Made by a program: the position numbers and the translations under genes. A DNA stretch of 64,000 nt from positions 558,001 through 622,000 of the forward strand of contig NZ_JANRMI010000002.1 of assembly GCF_029531655.1 (NCBI RefSeq). Reading direction: 5' to 3'. The DNA is from Bdellovibrio svalbardensis (GTDB lineage Bacteria > Bdellovibrionota > Bdellovibrionia > Bdellovibrionales > Bdellovibrionaceae). Of the stretch, positions 44,984 through 57,841 are shown in pieces (position 1 is the stretch's first letter; each line of letters starts with the position of its first letter). The notes under the pieces are model-generated. The model was not told the DNA's origin. It was given only the letters and a program-made list of their open reading frames with translations, and ran no database searches.

Positions 44984-46615
44984 ATGAAACTTAATGTGTT
45001 TTCACTTATCCTGTCAGTGTTGCTTGCTACGTCGGCTCAAGCTAGCCAACGTGTGATCGTGATCATGAAAGATCAACAATCCTTTAAAGCTGCTCATATG
45101 GCATTTAGAACAAACGGTGCATATGCTTTGAAGGGCTCTGGCATCAAATCTTCTTTGGCTACTGTTGATGGTCAAGTTGAAGCGTCTTTAGAAAACCTCA
45201 ACACATTGATCGTTAACGCGAAAAATGATTCTGAGATTTCTAAATTGCAAGCTGATCCGTCAGTTGCATACGTAGAAAAAGAAGTTTTCCACGAAGCTCC
45301 ACGTCCAGTTGCTGGATGGTTGGCAGCTCCGGCTCCTACAACTCCAAAACAAGTTCCAGGAGCTAAAACTCCATGGGGTATCTTGGCTGTTAAAGCTCCA
45401 CAAGCGTGGGCAGTTTCTAAGCAAGGTGCTGGCGCACGTGTACTAGTTCTAGACACTGGTATCGATGCAAACCATCCTTCTTTGAAAGCTAACTACGAGC
45501 AAGGTAAAGACTTCACAGGCGCAAGCTCTGGTGCTGATGTAACTGACCTTGTTGGTCACGGTTCACACTGCTCTGGTACTATCGCTGGTGTGATGGATTC
45601 TTCAGGCTTCACAGGTGTTGCTCCAAAAGCAAAAATCTTGATGGGTCGTGTTTGTGCTGAAAACGGTTGCTCAAACGTAGCTATCGCTTCTGGTATCAAC
45701 TGGGGTATTTCTCAAAAAGTTGATGTGATCTCTATGTCTTTGGGTGGCGCTTGGTCGACTCCTGCAGAAAGAGATGCAGTTGCTAAAGCTGATAAAGCGG
45801 GTGTGACTGTAGTTGCTGCTTCTGGTAACGACGGTTCAAATAAAGTTTCTTACCCTGCAGCTCTTCCATCTGTTATCGCAGTGGGTGCAGTTGACAACAA
45901 CTTGAAAAAAGCTGACTTCTCTCAATACGGTAAAGAGCTTGCAATCGTAGCTCCTGGTGTTGATGTTATCTCGACTGTTCCACAAGGTACTGGTCGTGAG
46001 TCTTCTGTAACTTTGTTTGTTGGTCAAAAATCTGCAAAGGTTAACTCTGCAACTTTCCAAGGCGCTCGCGAAGTTTTGAATGGCGAAACGAACGTATTGG
46101 TTGATTGCGGTCTTGGTAAACCTGAAGACTTCACTGGTAAAGATGTTAAAGGCAAATATGCTTTGATCTCTCGCGGTGAAATCGCATTCGGAGACAAAAT
46201 CAAGAATGCTATTGCAGCAGGTGCAACTGGCGCTGTGATCTACAACAATGCTCCTGGTTTGCTTCAAGGTTCTTTGACTGCTGATGGTTCAACTCTTCCA
46301 GCTGCAGTGTTCATGATCGAGCAAACTGTTGGTCAACAATTGGTTGCTGCTTTGAAGGCTAAAACACCTGTTAAAGCAACTGTACAAACTGTTGCAACTG
46401 ACTACGCTTCTTTCCAAGGTACTTCTATGGCGACTCCGCACGTAGCTGGTGTTGTGGCTTTGATCAAAGCAACAAACAAAACACTAACTGGCGCGCAAGT
46501 TAAAGAAATCTTGAAAAAGACTGCAACTGCTTTGGGTCCAAACTCTAACAATGAGTACGGCGCAGGTATGGTTAATGCTGAAGCTGCAGTAAATGCTGCT
46601 GCTCAAGTAAAATAA
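44984..46615 (+). CDS. secreted S8 subtilisin-like protease with PA domain
   Basis: The protein has 543 residues. A signal peptide (1-20) and an I9-type propeptide (about 20-105, with RVIVIMKD and VAYVEKEVF) precede the S8 domain. The triad is complete: Asp157 in LDTGID, His192 in GHGSHC, Ser481 in GTSMATP; the oxyanion Asn is in ASGND. A PA domain is inserted at about 350-450. Codon use is strongly biased to GCT, GGT and AAA, much more than in neighbours, which suggests high expression. The next gene is its paralogue, and the leaders share a block. Confidence 0.95.
   Translation: MKLNVFSLILSVLLATSAQASQRVIVIMKDQQSFKAAHMAFRTNGAYALKGSGIKSSLATVDGQVEASLENLNTLIVNAKNDSEISKLQADPSVAYVEKEVFHEAPRPVAGWLAAPAPTTPKQVPGAKTPWGILAVKAPQAWAVSKQGAGARVLVLDTGIDANHPSLKANYEQGKDFTGASSGADVTDLVGHGSHCSGTIAGVMDSSGFTGVAPKAKILMGRVCAENGCSNVAIASGINWGISQKVDVISMSLGGAWSTPAERDAVAKADKAGVTVVAASGNDGSNKVSYPAALPSVIAVGAVDNNLKKADFSQYGKELAIVAPGVDVISTVPQGTGRESSVTLFVGQKSAKVNSATFQGAREVLNGETNVLVDCGLGKPEDFTGKDVKGKYALISRGEIAFGDKIKNAIAAGATGAVIYNNAPGLLQGSLTADGSTLPAAVFMIEQTVGQQLVAALKAKTPVKATVQTVATDYASFQGTSMATPHVAGVVALIKATNKTLTGAQVKEILKKTATALGPNSNNEYGAGMVNAEAAVNAAAQVK
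46427..46461 (+). repeat. 35-base identity shared with the paralogous subtilase, copy 1
   Basis: This stretch covers the active-site Ser region and is identical to 48240-48274 in the second subtilase, although synonymous codons differ on both sides. It may reflect gene conversion or strong constraint. Confidence 0.75.
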
Positions 46616-46642
46616 TCATAAGCAAAATTAGATATGATTTTT

Positions 46643-46671
46643 AAAAAGGCTCCCATTCGGGGGCCTTTTTT
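46643..46671 (+). terminator. rho-independent terminator after the first subtilase gene
   Basis: AAAAAGGC with a short loop and the complement GCCTTTTT, followed by more T. It separates the two subtilase genes, so the second has its own promoter. Confidence 0.8.
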
Positions 46672-46756
46672 CGTTTAAAGGCATTGTTTGCTTTCTTAAC
46701 ATCTCCTAGTCGTAACTTGAAAATCAATCTCTCCTGAAATGAACTTTTGGTTCGAG

Positions 46757-46803
46757 GATCTCAACGGTTGAGATCTTTTTGAACTGCCACGGAATTGGGG
46801 AGA
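46757..46803 (+). promoter_or_regulatory. hairpin and conserved leader block before the second subtilase gene
   Basis: GATCTCAA / TTGAGATC with a CGG loop (46757-46775) is followed by T5 and then the CCACGGAATTGGGGAGA block that also precedes the first subtilase gene. The hairpin plus T run could act as an attenuator. GAAC...GGTTC lies just before it, as in the first leader. Confidence 0.45.
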
Positions 46804-46808
46804 TACAA

Positions 46809-48428
46809 ATGAAACTAACCATGTTTTCGGTATTTTTGTCCGTAATACTTTCATCAGCGGCCTTTGCTGAGCAGAGAGTGATTGTAGTGATGAAAGACGC
46901 AAAGTCCTTTCACGCAGCGAATCTGGCTTACAAAAACAAAGATCTCACTCTTTGGAAAAGTGTGAGAATGGATGAAGAAGCTCTTAAAGGCGTCGAGCAC
47001 AGTCTGGAAAATCTAAAAACCTTTATTGTGATGGCCAAGGACCAAGCAGAGATCGCAAGATTGAAAGCCAATCCGGCAGTCGCGATTGTCGAAGAAGAGG
47101 TGTTTCATCCTTTGCCGCAGCCGATGCAAGGTTTCTTAGGACGTCCAATGCCTTCAGTAACATTGCCGGGGGCCAAAACTCCGTGGGGTATAATGGCGGT
47201 GAAGGCGCCAGCGGCTTGGGATAAATCCAAGTCTGGGGAGGGTGCCCGGGTCTTGGTTCTAGATACAGGGATTGATAAGGATCATCCGGCAATCAAGGCG
47301 AACTTTGAGCGTGGACAGGATTTTACAGGTCGTAGCACGGGGAGTGATTTCTCAGATGTTGTGGGACATGGAACTCATGTGTCGGGAACTGTTGCAGGGG
47401 TTCTTAATGAAGAGACTGGTTTCACAGGCGTGGCCCCGAAAGCAAAACTTCTGATGGGCCGAGTGTGCTCTAATCTTGGCTGCTCGAGTTCTGCCATCGT
47501 TCAAGGGATCAACTGGGGTATTTCACAAAAAGTGGATGTGATCTCAATGTCTCTGGGTGGCGCGTGGTCGACACCTGCGGAAAGAGACGCTGTGAACAAA
47601 GCAGATGGTGCTGGTTTGAGTATTGTTGCGGCTTCGGGTAACGATGGCTCAGGAAAAGTTTCCTTCCCTGCGGCTTTGTCTACGGTTGTAGCCGTCGGAG
47701 CAGTTAGCGAAGATCTTGTAAGAGCGGACTTCTCGCAATATGGTCCAGAGCTTGCGGTTGTTGCTCCAGGAGTTGAGGTTCTTTCATCAGTTCCGCGTGG
47801 TACGGGTCGTGATGCCGAAACTTCCATAGATACGGGTGCTAGCAATGACAAGGTAAAGTCGACGTCTTTCCAGGGAGCTCGTGAAGTTTTCACGCCAGAG
47901 ACGAAAGAGTTGGTGGCGGCAGGTCTTGGGAAGCCAGAAGATTTCAAAAACATCGACGTTAAAGGAAAGTACGCTTTGGTCTCTCGCGGGGAGATTTTCT
48001 TTGCCGATAAAGCCAAGAACGCGGCGGCCGCGGGAGCCTTGGGAATCATTATTTACAATAATGCTCCAGGTTTAATTCAAGGTGCATTGACGGCAGACGG
48101 CTCGACCTTGCCGGTAGTGGCATTTATGATTGAGCAAACTGTCGGGCAAAATGTGCTGTCTATGCTAGGGGCTGGTAAGGTTGTTAAAGCAACCGTACGC
48201 ACAATTGCAACAGACTATACGGAATTCCAAGGAACTTCGATGGCGACTCCGCACGTAGCTGGTGTTGTGGCTTTAATGAAAGCAGCAAATCCAAGACTTA
48301 AGGGCGCTCAAGTCAAAGCGATTCTTAAGCAATCAGCGACTCCAATGGCACCGAATGATAAAAACCAATATGGTGCAGGATTGGTGAATGCAGAAGCAGC
48401 TGTAAACGCAGCCATGCAGGCACGCTAG
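46809..48428 (+). CDS. secreted S8 subtilisin-like protease with PA domain, paralogue
   Basis: Protein of 539 residues with the same domain order as its neighbour: signal peptide (1-20), I9 propeptide, S8 domain with Asp152, His187 and Ser477, and a PA insertion. The ATG at 46809 has GGGGAG upstream. The protein is closely similar to the 44984 product through the whole catalytic part, but codon use is ordinary. This suggests an old duplication with different expression. It probably shares substrates with the first copy. Confidence 0.94.
   Translation: MKLTMFSVFLSVILSSAAFAEQRVIVVMKDAKSFHAANLAYKNKDLTLWKSVRMDEEALKGVEHSLENLKTFIVMAKDQAEIARLKANPAVAIVEEEVFHPLPQPMQGFLGRPMPSVTLPGAKTPWGIMAVKAPAAWDKSKSGEGARVLVLDTGIDKDHPAIKANFERGQDFTGRSTGSDFSDVVGHGTHVSGTVAGVLNEETGFTGVAPKAKLLMGRVCSNLGCSSSAIVQGINWGISQKVDVISMSLGGAWSTPAERDAVNKADGAGLSIVAASGNDGSGKVSFPAALSTVVAVGAVSEDLVRADFSQYGPELAVVAPGVEVLSSVPRGTGRDAETSIDTGASNDKVKSTSFQGAREVFTPETKELVAAGLGKPEDFKNIDVKGKYALVSRGEIFFADKAKNAAAAGALGIIIYNNAPGLIQGALTADGSTLPVVAFMIEQTVGQNVLSMLGAGKVVKATVRTIATDYTEFQGTSMATPHVAGVVALMKAANPRLKGAQVKAILKQSATPMAPNDKNQYGAGLVNAEAAVNAAMQAR
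48240..48274 (+). repeat. 35-base identity shared with the first subtilase, copy 2
   Basis: Identical to 46427-46461 at the nucleotide level, in the active-site Ser region. The bases just outside differ in several synonymous positions. Confidence 0.75.
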
Positions 48429-54496: not shown

Positions 54497-54578
54497 GCGC
54501 GAGTGGTGGAATGGTAGACACGTACGTTTGAGGGGCGTATGCGCAAGCGTGGGGGTTCAAGTCCCCCCTCGCGCACCA
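54497..54578 (+). tRNA. tRNA-Leu (anticodon GAG)
   Basis: The acceptor stem GCGCGAG pairs with CTCGCGC, the anticodon stem TACGT/GCGTA holds the loop TTGAGGG with anticodon GAG, and the T arm is GGGGGTTCAAGTCCCCC. A short variable arm (TGCGCAAGCG) marks a class II tRNA. CCA is encoded at 54576-54578. The D arm is GTGGTGGAATGGTAGACAC, normal for Leu. Confidence 0.95.
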
Positions 54579-54783: not shown

Positions 54784-56190
54784 ATGAGGACTACGAGTGC
54801 GACTGTAAAACAAATATTGGCACTTCTTATTAGCTCACTCCCAATTGCCGGTTTTGCGCAATTTACTTCCACAGAGCTTCCAGATTCAATGCGATCCATG
54901 GTGATTCCTTCCTTGCCACTTCTTTGCTCGCTAGATCATTTAAATCCTTCCGCGTATCAAAATGAGTTGGCCAAAATTGCTTCAACTCCAGGCGTTGCAA
55001 GTAAACCACAATGCAATGGTGATGAGTGGAAAACGGTATGCTCCCTGACCTTCACTAATAAAACTGCAGTAAAACTTGTTTTCGCGACGGATGAAAATCG
55101 TGGCGATAGTTACCGCGCAATCAAAATTATGGATCAAGCAAGAAGTGAAATATTCAGCGCTATAAATGCTTATCACTTCATATACGAAGGTTACTTTTCA
55201 ACAGACTGTAAGAAATTAACACGTTCGAAATATTTCACTTTAGATCGGTTGGGGAATCGCGAAAAGATTCGAAGCTATGAAAATGGGGCGGTCAGCGATT
55301 TTCCCATTAATGTGCCTGTTAAAAAGTTGGAAGAAATATATAGTCCAAACACGCTATTGAGACTGCAGCAACAGTACAAGAATTCAACTCGTCCTGTCTA
55401 TGTGGGAGTTATGGGTGGTGGCGTAGATTACAATCACCCGGCTGTCGCTTTCAACATTGATCGCAATCCTGAGATTGGATGGGATGTTATTTTCTCGAAT
55501 AATCTTCCCTTTGAAGTAGGCTTTGAGGTGATGCATGGATTCTTCAGAGATCCCCACGAAACGACGGTCTCCGCAATTATTGCGCAAGACAATCCTCAAT
55601 TAAGAATTATTCCATTGAAAACATCCGGAGACCTCTCTGGAAACGGAAATATTCGTCTTATTGATTACGCTCAAAAACGTGGAGTCAAAGTGGTGAACAT
55701 GAGTTTTGTTTATCAGCTTGAGCTATGGGATAAGGGTGACCTGAAGCCTGCAATCGATTCCCACAAAAATATACTCTTTGTTACCGGCGCTGGGAATATG
55801 GGCAAAGATTTAAGCGCACTTGATACTAGAAATTTTCCGGCAGCATACAAAGCAGACAATGTCTTGACTGTTGGAGCCATCGATAAAGCTGGAGATGTCG
55901 CAGACTACTCCAACTACGGTTCATTGGTAGATGTCTTAGCCCCTGGTGATGCAATAAATATCTCGTCGGAGGAAGAGCATAAAAATAAACCGGTCCAGGG
56001 AACCTCCTACGCTGCGCCGAGAGTTGCCAAGTTAGCGGCGAAAATATTCTCGATACGCCCGGATCTAAGCCCGCTTCAGGTACGTGAAATAATTTGTTCA
56101 ACTGCAGAGATGAAGAGCTATCTGCGAGACAAAGTGCGGTTCGGAGTAATTAATGAGCAAAGGGCTCTGCAGATGGCGGCGCAGCATTAA
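54784..56190 (+). CDS. S8 subtilisin-like protein with the catalytic Asp replaced by Gly
   Basis: The protein has 468 residues with a signal peptide (1-25, ending GFAQ) and a long pro-region without an I9 match. In the S8 domain the Asp motif is VGVMGGGVDYNHP, with Gly211 where the catalytic Asp should be. His258 (DPHETTV), oxyanion Asn338 (GAGNMG) and Ser408 (GTSYAAP) are kept, but the HGTH block is degraded to HETT. There is no PA domain. It may be a pseudoenzyme or use Asp215. A long AT-rich leader and a hairpin terminator frame it. Confidence 0.85.
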   Translation: MRTTSATVKQILALLISSLPIAGFAQFTSTELPDSMRSMVIPSLPLLCSLDHLNPSAYQNELAKIASTPGVASKPQCNGDEWKTVCSLTFTNKTAVKLVFATDENRGDSYRAIKIMDQARSEIFSAINAYHFIYEGYFSTDCKKLTRSKYFTLDRLGNREKIRSYENGAVSDFPINVPVKKLEEIYSPNTLLRLQQQYKNSTRPVYVGVMGGGVDYNHPAVAFNIDRNPEIGWDVIFSNNLPFEVGFEVMHGFFRDPHETTVSAIIAQDNPQLRIIPLKTSGDLSGNGNIRLIDYAQKRGVKVVNMSFVYQLELWDKGDLKPAIDSHKNILFVTGAGNMGKDLSALDTRNFPAAYKADNVLTVGAIDKAGDVADYSNYGSLVDVLAPGDAINISSEEEHKNKPVQGTSYAAPRVAKLAAKIFSIRPDLSPLQVREIICSTAEMKSYLRDKVRFGVINEQRALQMAAQH

Positions 56191-56235: not shown

Positions 56236-56268
56236 CTTTGAGAGCATAAATGCTCTCAAAGTTTTGTC
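56236..56268 (+). terminator. perfect 12-bp hairpin terminator upstream of the TIGR02147 gene
   Basis: CTTTGAGAGCAT, an AA spacer and its exact complement (56236-56261), followed by TTTTGTC. It ends the subtilase-like gene and lies 43 bases before the TIGR02147 start. Its arm TTGAGAGCA is also in the hairpin at 57150, on the other side of that gene. Confidence 0.7.
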
Positions 56269-56304: not shown

Positions 56305-57141
56305 ATGAGCACTAACACTCCAAAGAAACCACAGCTTAAAGATTATCTCGATGTTTCTCACTATCTTAAAGATCTTTATGGTTATCGCAAAGCCACTGAA
56401 GATGGATTTTCTTATGAGTCTTGGGCCCAAGAGGTGGGCTTTCAGCATCGTTCGTTCTTACGTCAGGTAGTGATCGGCCGGCGTGCCTTGACTGATGCCA
56501 CCGCCAAGCAACTGGGTGAGCGTCTTTTCTTCACCAAGCCCGAGCAGGAACATTTCCAAACTCTGGCACGCTATTCAAAGTGTCGTACCAAACAAGAGCG
56601 CGATGTTTACGGGCAGCGCTTGATGCAGATTTTGAAGGACAACTACTATCAAACAGAGGTGGAAGTCTCAGAAGATTTCCTGGGATCTCCGATGGTTCCG
56701 CGGTTGCAGGTTCTGCTTAGCCTGGGTGATAAATCCCGCTCTATTAAAGACCTTTCTCAAGCCCTTCAGGCAGACCCTCTGGAAATTGAAAAGGGCTTGC
56801 TGGTTTTGCTTCGTCTGAATTTAGTGGAGCTTGATGGTGACAACTATAAGGCCACAGTGAATAGCTTTAAGGTTCCTGCGGAGTTGGGCAGTGAAGTTCT
56901 TTTGGATTATCATAAAAAGATTCTGCAAGATGCGATCGCAGCACGAAACCTGCCCCACGATCAACGCAGGTATAAAAGCTTATTGATGGCTATGTCCCCC
57001 GAAGAGTTTGAACAATTCTTGAATAACATGAATGCGTTCGCCAAAGAACAACTGCAGAAATTCGACAATCCCAGCGTTGAGGGGCGTCGCCTTTTCCAAG
57101 TGAACTTGAACCTATTTTCAGTCAGCACTGAACTCACTTAA
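56305..57141 (+). CDS. TIGR02147 family protein, likely transcriptional regulator
   Basis: A 278-residue protein. The N-terminal helix-turn-helix region (PQLKDYLDVSHYLKDLYGYRK, then SYESWAQEVGFQHRSFLRQV) and the DUF4423-type C-terminal part (SIKDLSQALQADPLEIEKGLLVL...RLFQVNLNLFSVS) match TIGR02147, a family almost limited to Bdellovibrio and Fibrobacter. The C-terminal part contains a winged-helix-like segment. Members are thought to be regulators; targets are unknown. Two hairpins with a shared arm flank the gene. Confidence 0.88.
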   Translation: MSTNTPKKPQLKDYLDVSHYLKDLYGYRKATEDGFSYESWAQEVGFQHRSFLRQVVIGRRALTDATAKQLGERLFFTKPEQEHFQTLARYSKCRTKQERDVYGQRLMQILKDNYYQTEVEVSEDFLGSPMVPRLQVLLSLGDKSRSIKDLSQALQADPLEIEKGLLVLLRLNLVELDGDNYKATVNSFKVPAELGSEVLLDYHKKILQDAIAARNLPHDQRRYKSLLMAMSPEEFEQFLNNMNAFAKEQLQKFDNPSVEGRRLFQVNLNLFSVSTELT

Positions 57142-57149
57142 CTTAAGTG

Positions 57150-57198
57150 CATCTTGAGAGCAGGCCTGCTCTCAAGATGTTGAAAAGTCTCCTTTTTT
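57150..57198 (+). terminator. 30-base perfect palindrome terminator downstream of the TIGR02147 gene
   Basis: CATCTTGAGAGCAGG and its exact complement (57150-57179) without a loop spacer, then a T7 tract at about 57192. The arm core TTGAGAGCA equals that at 56236. It ends the regulator gene and could also be an operator. Confidence 0.7.
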
Positions 57199-57373
57199 TA
57201 CTCTTTGCCCAATTTTTCGTCAGTCATCTATCCATTCGAATTTGTTAAGTAGCTGGAATCACGAGAAGCGCGTGGCTGGCATTGCCCTTGCTTTGGTACT
57301 CAATCAAATTATTAAAAACTTGAGGCCTCCGCTTCGGCGCGCTCCGCAAGTTCACATATACCAAGAGGTAAAT

Positions 57374-57841
57374 ATGAAAAAGCTTTTCGTTGGACTCCTT
57401 GCATTCGCGATGTTGTCATCTGCTCACGCTGCAAAAACTTCCGGCACGGGCCAGATCGGTTCTGGCAACGTAAACATTAGTAAAGAAGACTTCCTTGATA
57501 GCTATATCGTGGGCAAACTTGCTATTGAAGGACCATATTATGCGGTTGAATTCAAAGTGAATGCCGCTGGCGATCGTATCGTTTTCAGAAATGGCAATAT
57601 GGATGAAGTTAGCCCAAATGAAGACTGCGTAGGTAATGGTATTTCTATCAAGAAAAACATCATGAGCCTTGCCGTTGCGTGCAAAAGCATGGGTGGCGCA
57701 ACACTGAACTTTGATATTAATGTTGAAGGCCTGACAAAAGAAGCTTTAGCAAAAGGCGCGAAAGTAATGGTTCGCAGTGAAGCAACTCAAGGCCAATGGG
57801 TTCCATTCAATATCATCCAAAGAAAGAAATCTTTCTTTTAA
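57374..57841 (+). CDS. exported beta-rich protein, unknown
   Basis: A 155-residue protein with a signal peptide (1-19, ending AHA). The mature domain has strands and two Cys (NEDCVGNG, AVACKSMG), consistent with one disulfide. The ATG at 57374 has AAGAGG upstream and opens the signal peptide; an earlier in-frame start would add a poorly conserved stretch. It is closed by a bidirectional terminator. No family is recognised. Confidence 0.6.
   Translation: MKKLFVGLLAFAMLSSAHAAKTSGTGQIGSGNVNISKEDFLDSYIVGKLAIEGPYYAVEFKVNAAGDRIVFRNGNMDEVSPNEDCVGNGISIKKNIMSLAVACKSMGGATLNFDINVEGLTKEALAKGAKVMVRSEATQGQWVPFNIIQRKKSFF

Follow-up and report, generated by a model that had tools for sequence, protein, structure and literature searches.

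We found a subtilisin-like (S8) protein in Bdellovibrio svalbardensis that has glycine at the position of the catalytic aspartate, and that we are inclined to regard as a secreted pseudoprotease of the subtilisin fold, derived from an active S8 protease of the Bdellovibrionota type, with the retained fold proposed to bind rather than to cut. Its gene lies in the window, by which we mean the whole stretch of 64,000 nucleotides that was analysed (assembly GCF_029531655.1, contig NZ_JANRMI010000002.1, positions 558,001 to 622,000 of the forward strand). The features of the gene and its immediate flanks, in window coordinates, are these:

54497..54578, + strand: tRNA-Leu (GAG), directly upstream of the pseudo-subtilase gene (ARAGORN)
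54784..56190, + strand: pseudo-subtilase gene, 468 codons (468 aa), with the frame open throughout
54784..54858, + strand: putative Sec signal peptide, residues 1-25 (MRTTSATVKQILALLISSLPIAGFA), read from the sequence
54859..55383, + strand: N-terminal region, residues 26-200, a possible propeptide, of no known family and with low model confidence
55390..56181, + strand: subtilisin-fold domain, residues 203-466 (PF00082; structure model and PDB match 3vv3, Z 32)
55414..55416, + strand: GGT codon of Gly211, at the catalytic Asp position (sequence and alignment)
55426..55428, + strand: Asp215, second acid of the DxGxD motif (alignment)
55555..55557, + strand: His258, at the catalytic base position, retained (motif reading and alignment)
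55558..55566, + strand: Glu259-Thr260-Thr261, replacing Gly-Thr-His (alignment)
55795..55797, + strand: Asn338, at the oxyanion-hole position, retained (motif reading and alignment)
56005..56007, + strand: Ser408, at the nucleophile position, retained in GTSYAAP (motif reading and alignment)
56236..56261, + strand: hairpin resembling an intrinsic terminator, followed by a T run

In a profile search, the 468-aa protein matches PF00082 over residues 205-453 (E 6.2e-31), and its AlphaFold2 model has good confidence for the greater part of the catalytic domain, with weak loops at 247-254 and 311-316 and poor quality before residue 193. When this model was compared with solved structures, the best match was deseasin MCP-01 (3vv3; Z 32.2, rmsd 2.1 A over 250 residues), with other subtilases next; this deseasin, the closest solved structure by both sequence and fold, differs in being an active protease with the Asp motif VIDTGVDYSHP. 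Since its N-terminus resembles a signal peptide, we infer that the pseudo-subtilase is exported. The N-terminal region is modelled with a mean pLDDT of 37, which is unusable for fold assignment; it is partly common to the nearest relative (the BroJett040 protein described below), and a search of 141 genomes of the order returned no convincing match to it. One hit in genome G018 (E 0.002), which falls among ORFs resembling repeat-containing lipoproteins, was set aside as chance.

The active-site motifs of the protein read V207-G-V-M-G211-G-G-V-D215, D256-P-H258-E-T-T261, G337-N338 (GAGN) and G406-T-S408-Y. This confirms what the sequence-only reading had picked out, namely Gly211 in the motif VGVMGGGVD, the retention of His258, Asn338 and Ser408, and the change of HGTH to HETT; the retained residues also hold up in the alignment. 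For comparison, we assembled 75 S8 proteins, drawn from the same genome, from other members of its genus, family and order, and from phyla further away; this set was not sampled at random from the subtilases, but it contains everything nearest to the pseudo-subtilase. The column of the catalytic Asp could be aligned in 72 relatives and is Asp in 72/72; of three others, two can be read directly as IIDTG and ILDNG, and the third is truncated at the end of its locus. Gly211 is thereby unlike all 74 readable relatives, Asp is present in all 15 other S8 genes of the B. svalbardensis genome, and its loss is unique to the pseudo-subtilase among the relatives compared. Among 389 genomes searched, an exact DNA pattern encoding the GGG variant is present in this one only, although that pattern is too narrow to serve as a survey.

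Further substitutions surround the one at the Asp position. The residue after the catalytic His (alignment column 68) is Glu259 here and Gly, Ala or Ser in 75/75 relatives, and the second His of HGTH (column 70) is replaced by Thr261, a residue never found at that column in the relatives. The equivalent of savinase Ala152 is Gly in the pseudo-subtilase and Ala or Ser in 75/75 relatives, and the substrate-cleft strand SLGG reads SFVY. In subtilases, the acid, base and oxyanion segments constitute the structural catalytic core, and in savinase the C-alpha of the Gly that follows His64 is in packing contact with the Gly34 carbonyl, at 3.2 A (PMC11593635); by this packing, Glu259 should disturb the acid-base zone of the pseudo-subtilase. 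The protein has the fold and profile of the S8 family together with its His, Ser and oxyanion Asn and lacks the Asp of DxGxD, so that by sequence criteria it is an S8 homologue and no active S8 peptidase. With a triad residue lost and the fold otherwise intact, it also belongs with the serine protease homologues.

The nearest relative by E-value is an S8 protein from a sibling genus (MAG Oligoflexia bacterium BroJett040; L021, the same as L072), which is co-linear with the pseudo-subtilase over residues 138-463 at 32% identity and has the IYSP linker and GVDYNHPA in common with it. It differs in its intact Asp (IGIIDIGVD), HGTH and GTSM, and judging by these motifs is presumably an active protease. 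With the columns of the Asp and His motifs excluded from tree building, the pseudo-subtilase falls in a 15-row group (support 83) with the BroJett040 protein, a paralogue from its own genome (G000:C1:294709-296181; L050/L152) and the relatives of that paralogue in the genus; the paralogue and its relatives have N-terminal extensions of their own and intact D/H/N/S in all aligned members. Because all other members of the group have Asp, the loss maps to the terminal branch of the pseudo-subtilase. One member reads VIDGGVDYNHP, which makes a change from GAT to GGT plausible as a single step, GGT at codon 211 being one A-to-G transition away from GAT. No orthologue was found in the 23 other species of the genus searched; the viral contigs scanned held no relative, and all that the plasmid collection searched gave were distant subtilases of the ordinary sort, with coverage of the protein below 80% in every case.

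We propose that the catalytic Asp was lost, and the segment around the catalytic His remodelled, on the protein's own terminal branch. Without the Asp, the His-Ser pair would be unpolarised and, with Glu259 disturbing the acid-base zone, little or no ordinary peptidase activity would be expected. The retained fold might then act by binding, its old cleft most likely taking up peptides, propeptides or protease inhibitors, and such binding could tune the roughly 15 active sibling subtilases; these last two proposals together form the weakest step. Most likely, then, the protein is a former protease that has been put to use in binding or regulation. Some features weigh against a pseudoprotease: His, Ser and the oxyanion Asn are all retained, as would not be required of a protease retired long ago, and with them some residual or triggered activity is conceivable; with SFVY in place of SLGG in the cleft strand, binding of extended peptides in the old cleft may depart from the usual mode; no orthologue with Gly211 turned up in the 23 other species of the genus; and there is no partner gene or operon at the locus.

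The same observations could instead describe a subtilase of recent acquisition or duplication whose function is being lost as the gene turns into a pseudogene, with the active-site changes among the first to escape selection. We consider this unlikely, though well worth weighing: the gene is confined to one species among 24 of the genus, lies beside a tRNA-Leu with a variable 3' flank, has a GC content of 42% and a GC3 of 0.40, below most neighbouring genes, lacks a conserved partner, and needs just the one transition for D211G. Against such decay, its 468-codon frame is open, and the pattern of its losses differs from that of the active-type BroJett040 relative. Taking columns conserved at 80% or more, and counting those within four positions of a catalytic residue as belonging to the active site, the pseudo-subtilase has lost 6/16 conserved active-site positions and the relative 0/16 (Fisher two-sided p = 0.018), which, as a comparison of one protein pair with small counts, is modest evidence. 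Conserved positions elsewhere are kept as well as in the relative (20/25 vs 17/25). Taken by itself, the pseudo-subtilase shows no significant excess of losses at active-site positions (Fisher one-sided p = 0.19 to 0.28). The end branches of the two proteins in the tree are alike (1.19 for the pseudo-subtilase and 1.07 for the relative), which indicates no general acceleration. Losses around the active site combined with a kept scaffold would thus favour a maintained pseudoprotease over random decay.

A slow or cofactor-gated protease, in which, as in engineered D32G subtilisin, a small anion (nitrite, formate or azide-like) fills the space of the Asp and Ser408 and His258 work with that anion, is improbable. 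The D32G form of subtilisin BPN' is activated by nitrite or azide, and weakly by formate and chloride (PMC7935941), and the engineered anion-triggered BPN' enzymes (D32A/D32G; 3BGO, 6UBE) resemble the pseudo-subtilase in that Gly or Ala takes the place of the Asp while His and Ser are retained (PMC7935941). The full residue pattern, with Gly or Ala at Asp32 and His64, Asn155 and Ser221 kept, is found here as Gly211 with His258, Asn338 and Ser408. Comparisons of the protein by sequence and by structure returned, among others, the engineered anion-triggered entries 6ube, 3f49 and 3bgo, but these matches mostly reflect the common subtilisin fold. Those enzymes are designed, whereas the pseudo-subtilase adds Glu after the His, Thr in HGTH and Val in the SLGG strand; the negative charge of Glu259, at a position that is G/A/S in 75/75 relatives, could repel an anion, and no natural precedent for anion gating was found in the literature searched. 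A natural counterpart of the engineered anion-gated subtilisins, either dependent on an anion (nitrite, formate) or using a relocated Glu259, would be distinctly improbable.

Very improbable, too, is an active enzyme whose acid has moved, such that His258 is polarised by Asp215, by Glu259 or, as in sedolisins, by a residue of the His helix. A Gly/Glu swap accompanying D211G is conceivable, given that Glu259 adjoins His258 and is absent from the 75 relatives, and the sedolisins show that the acid can shift to the base segment; they use Glu as the base, with the acid four residues later in the same helix (PMC11593635). In the pseudo-subtilase, the base would be His258 and the residue at +4 is Val262, while Glu259 is at i+1 and not i+4, and we rejected the sedolisin or serine-carboxyl proteinase (S53) arrangement. 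Asp215, which the sequence-only reading had put forward as a possible substitute acid, turned out to be the ordinary second acid of DxGxD (Asp in 53/72 and Glu in 4/72 aligned relatives); it accompanies the normal catalytic Asp in most relatives and is therefore not compensatory. Of the two readings offered at that stage, the one that invoked Asp215 does not stand, and the pseudoprotease is supported by the unique loss of Asp, the further active-site changes and the intact scaffold. An assembly or sequencing error at codon 211 is scarcely credible: the species is represented by one assembly, but that assembly has 10 contigs and is 99.94% complete, the frame is intact, and G259E and H261T occur at near-invariant positions in the same site, so that several independent substitutions (D211G, G259E, H261T) make a single sequencing error unlikely.

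Subtilase pseudoproteases are already known from bacteria, and the present probable one is species-specific. A survey of 91 prokaryotic genomes classed 8/227 subtilisin-like proteins as inactive homologues (PMC2605481), and CspA and CspC of Clostridioides difficile are subtilisin-like pseudoproteases with regulatory roles (PMC6636752). The likeness is that these, too, are bacterial proteins of the subtilisin type in which triad residues have been lost; their action is non-catalytic (PMC6636752). CspC differs in keeping Asp and losing His (Thr170) and Ser (Gly485), the reverse of the pattern in the pseudo-subtilase, in acting in spore germination, and in carrying a jelly-roll insert of about 130 residues; an insert of the Csp type is absent from the pseudo-subtilase, whose subtilase domain is confined to residues 203-466. 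Secreted proteases are numerous in predatory bacteria of this type, and little is known of how these enzymes are controlled; for B. bacteriovorus, 15 subtilisin-like gene products have been counted (PMC2605481). A pseudoprotease among such proteases could be a regulator or an inhibitor sponge, and, in addition, the pseudo-subtilase carries in nature the very substitution with which anion-gated subtilisins have been engineered.

The pseudo-subtilase gene is located directly 3' of tRNA-Leu(GAG), and the sequence past the 3' end of this tRNA varies between species of the genus, several of which have KefB, aldehyde dehydrogenase and C26-type genes near it. This setting would fit acquisition of the gene at a tRNA hot spot. 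In G011, a further species of the genus, a divergent subtilase-like gene with an intact Asp (ILDNGF) is located just 5' of the same tRNA-Leu(GAG) (L145 9398-10868); the pseudo-subtilase is 3' of the tRNA, and the two proteins are only distantly similar. The C26-type gene by the tRNA in the window has a 76%-identical copy in a further genome (G005:C1:2340949-2341923; L123), with one in-frame TAA inside the matched stretch.

From its flanks, the pseudo-subtilase gene appears to be a stand-alone unit. We considered an operon with the downstream TIGR02147 gene and rejected it, as the terminator-like hairpin stands between them and as, in other species, the TIGR02147 gene pairs with a small secreted gene with no adjoining subtilase. 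That pair, in which the gene for a small secreted GQIGSGNV protein comes after one of the TIGR02147 family, occupies 56305-57841 of the window and is kept in at least three other species (L052-L054), again without a neighbouring subtilase. Directly 5' of the start of the small secreted protein (57374-57841) is a near-palindromic stem-loop at 57317-57352 (AACTTGAGGCCTCCGC-TTCG-GCGCGCTCCGCAAGTT), which has no further copy in this genome; related genes in two other species have a similar leader ahead of them, visible in translation as PPLRRALRVHI (twice in L052 and once in L053), and the stem-loop is possibly a conserved 5' UTR element. Elsewhere in the window (44984-48428) are two tandem subtilases with PA domains, which had been read as carrying normal motifs at 45-48 kb and do have D/H/N/S intact in both; a third close relative of theirs is found at another place in this genome (G000:C3:36983).
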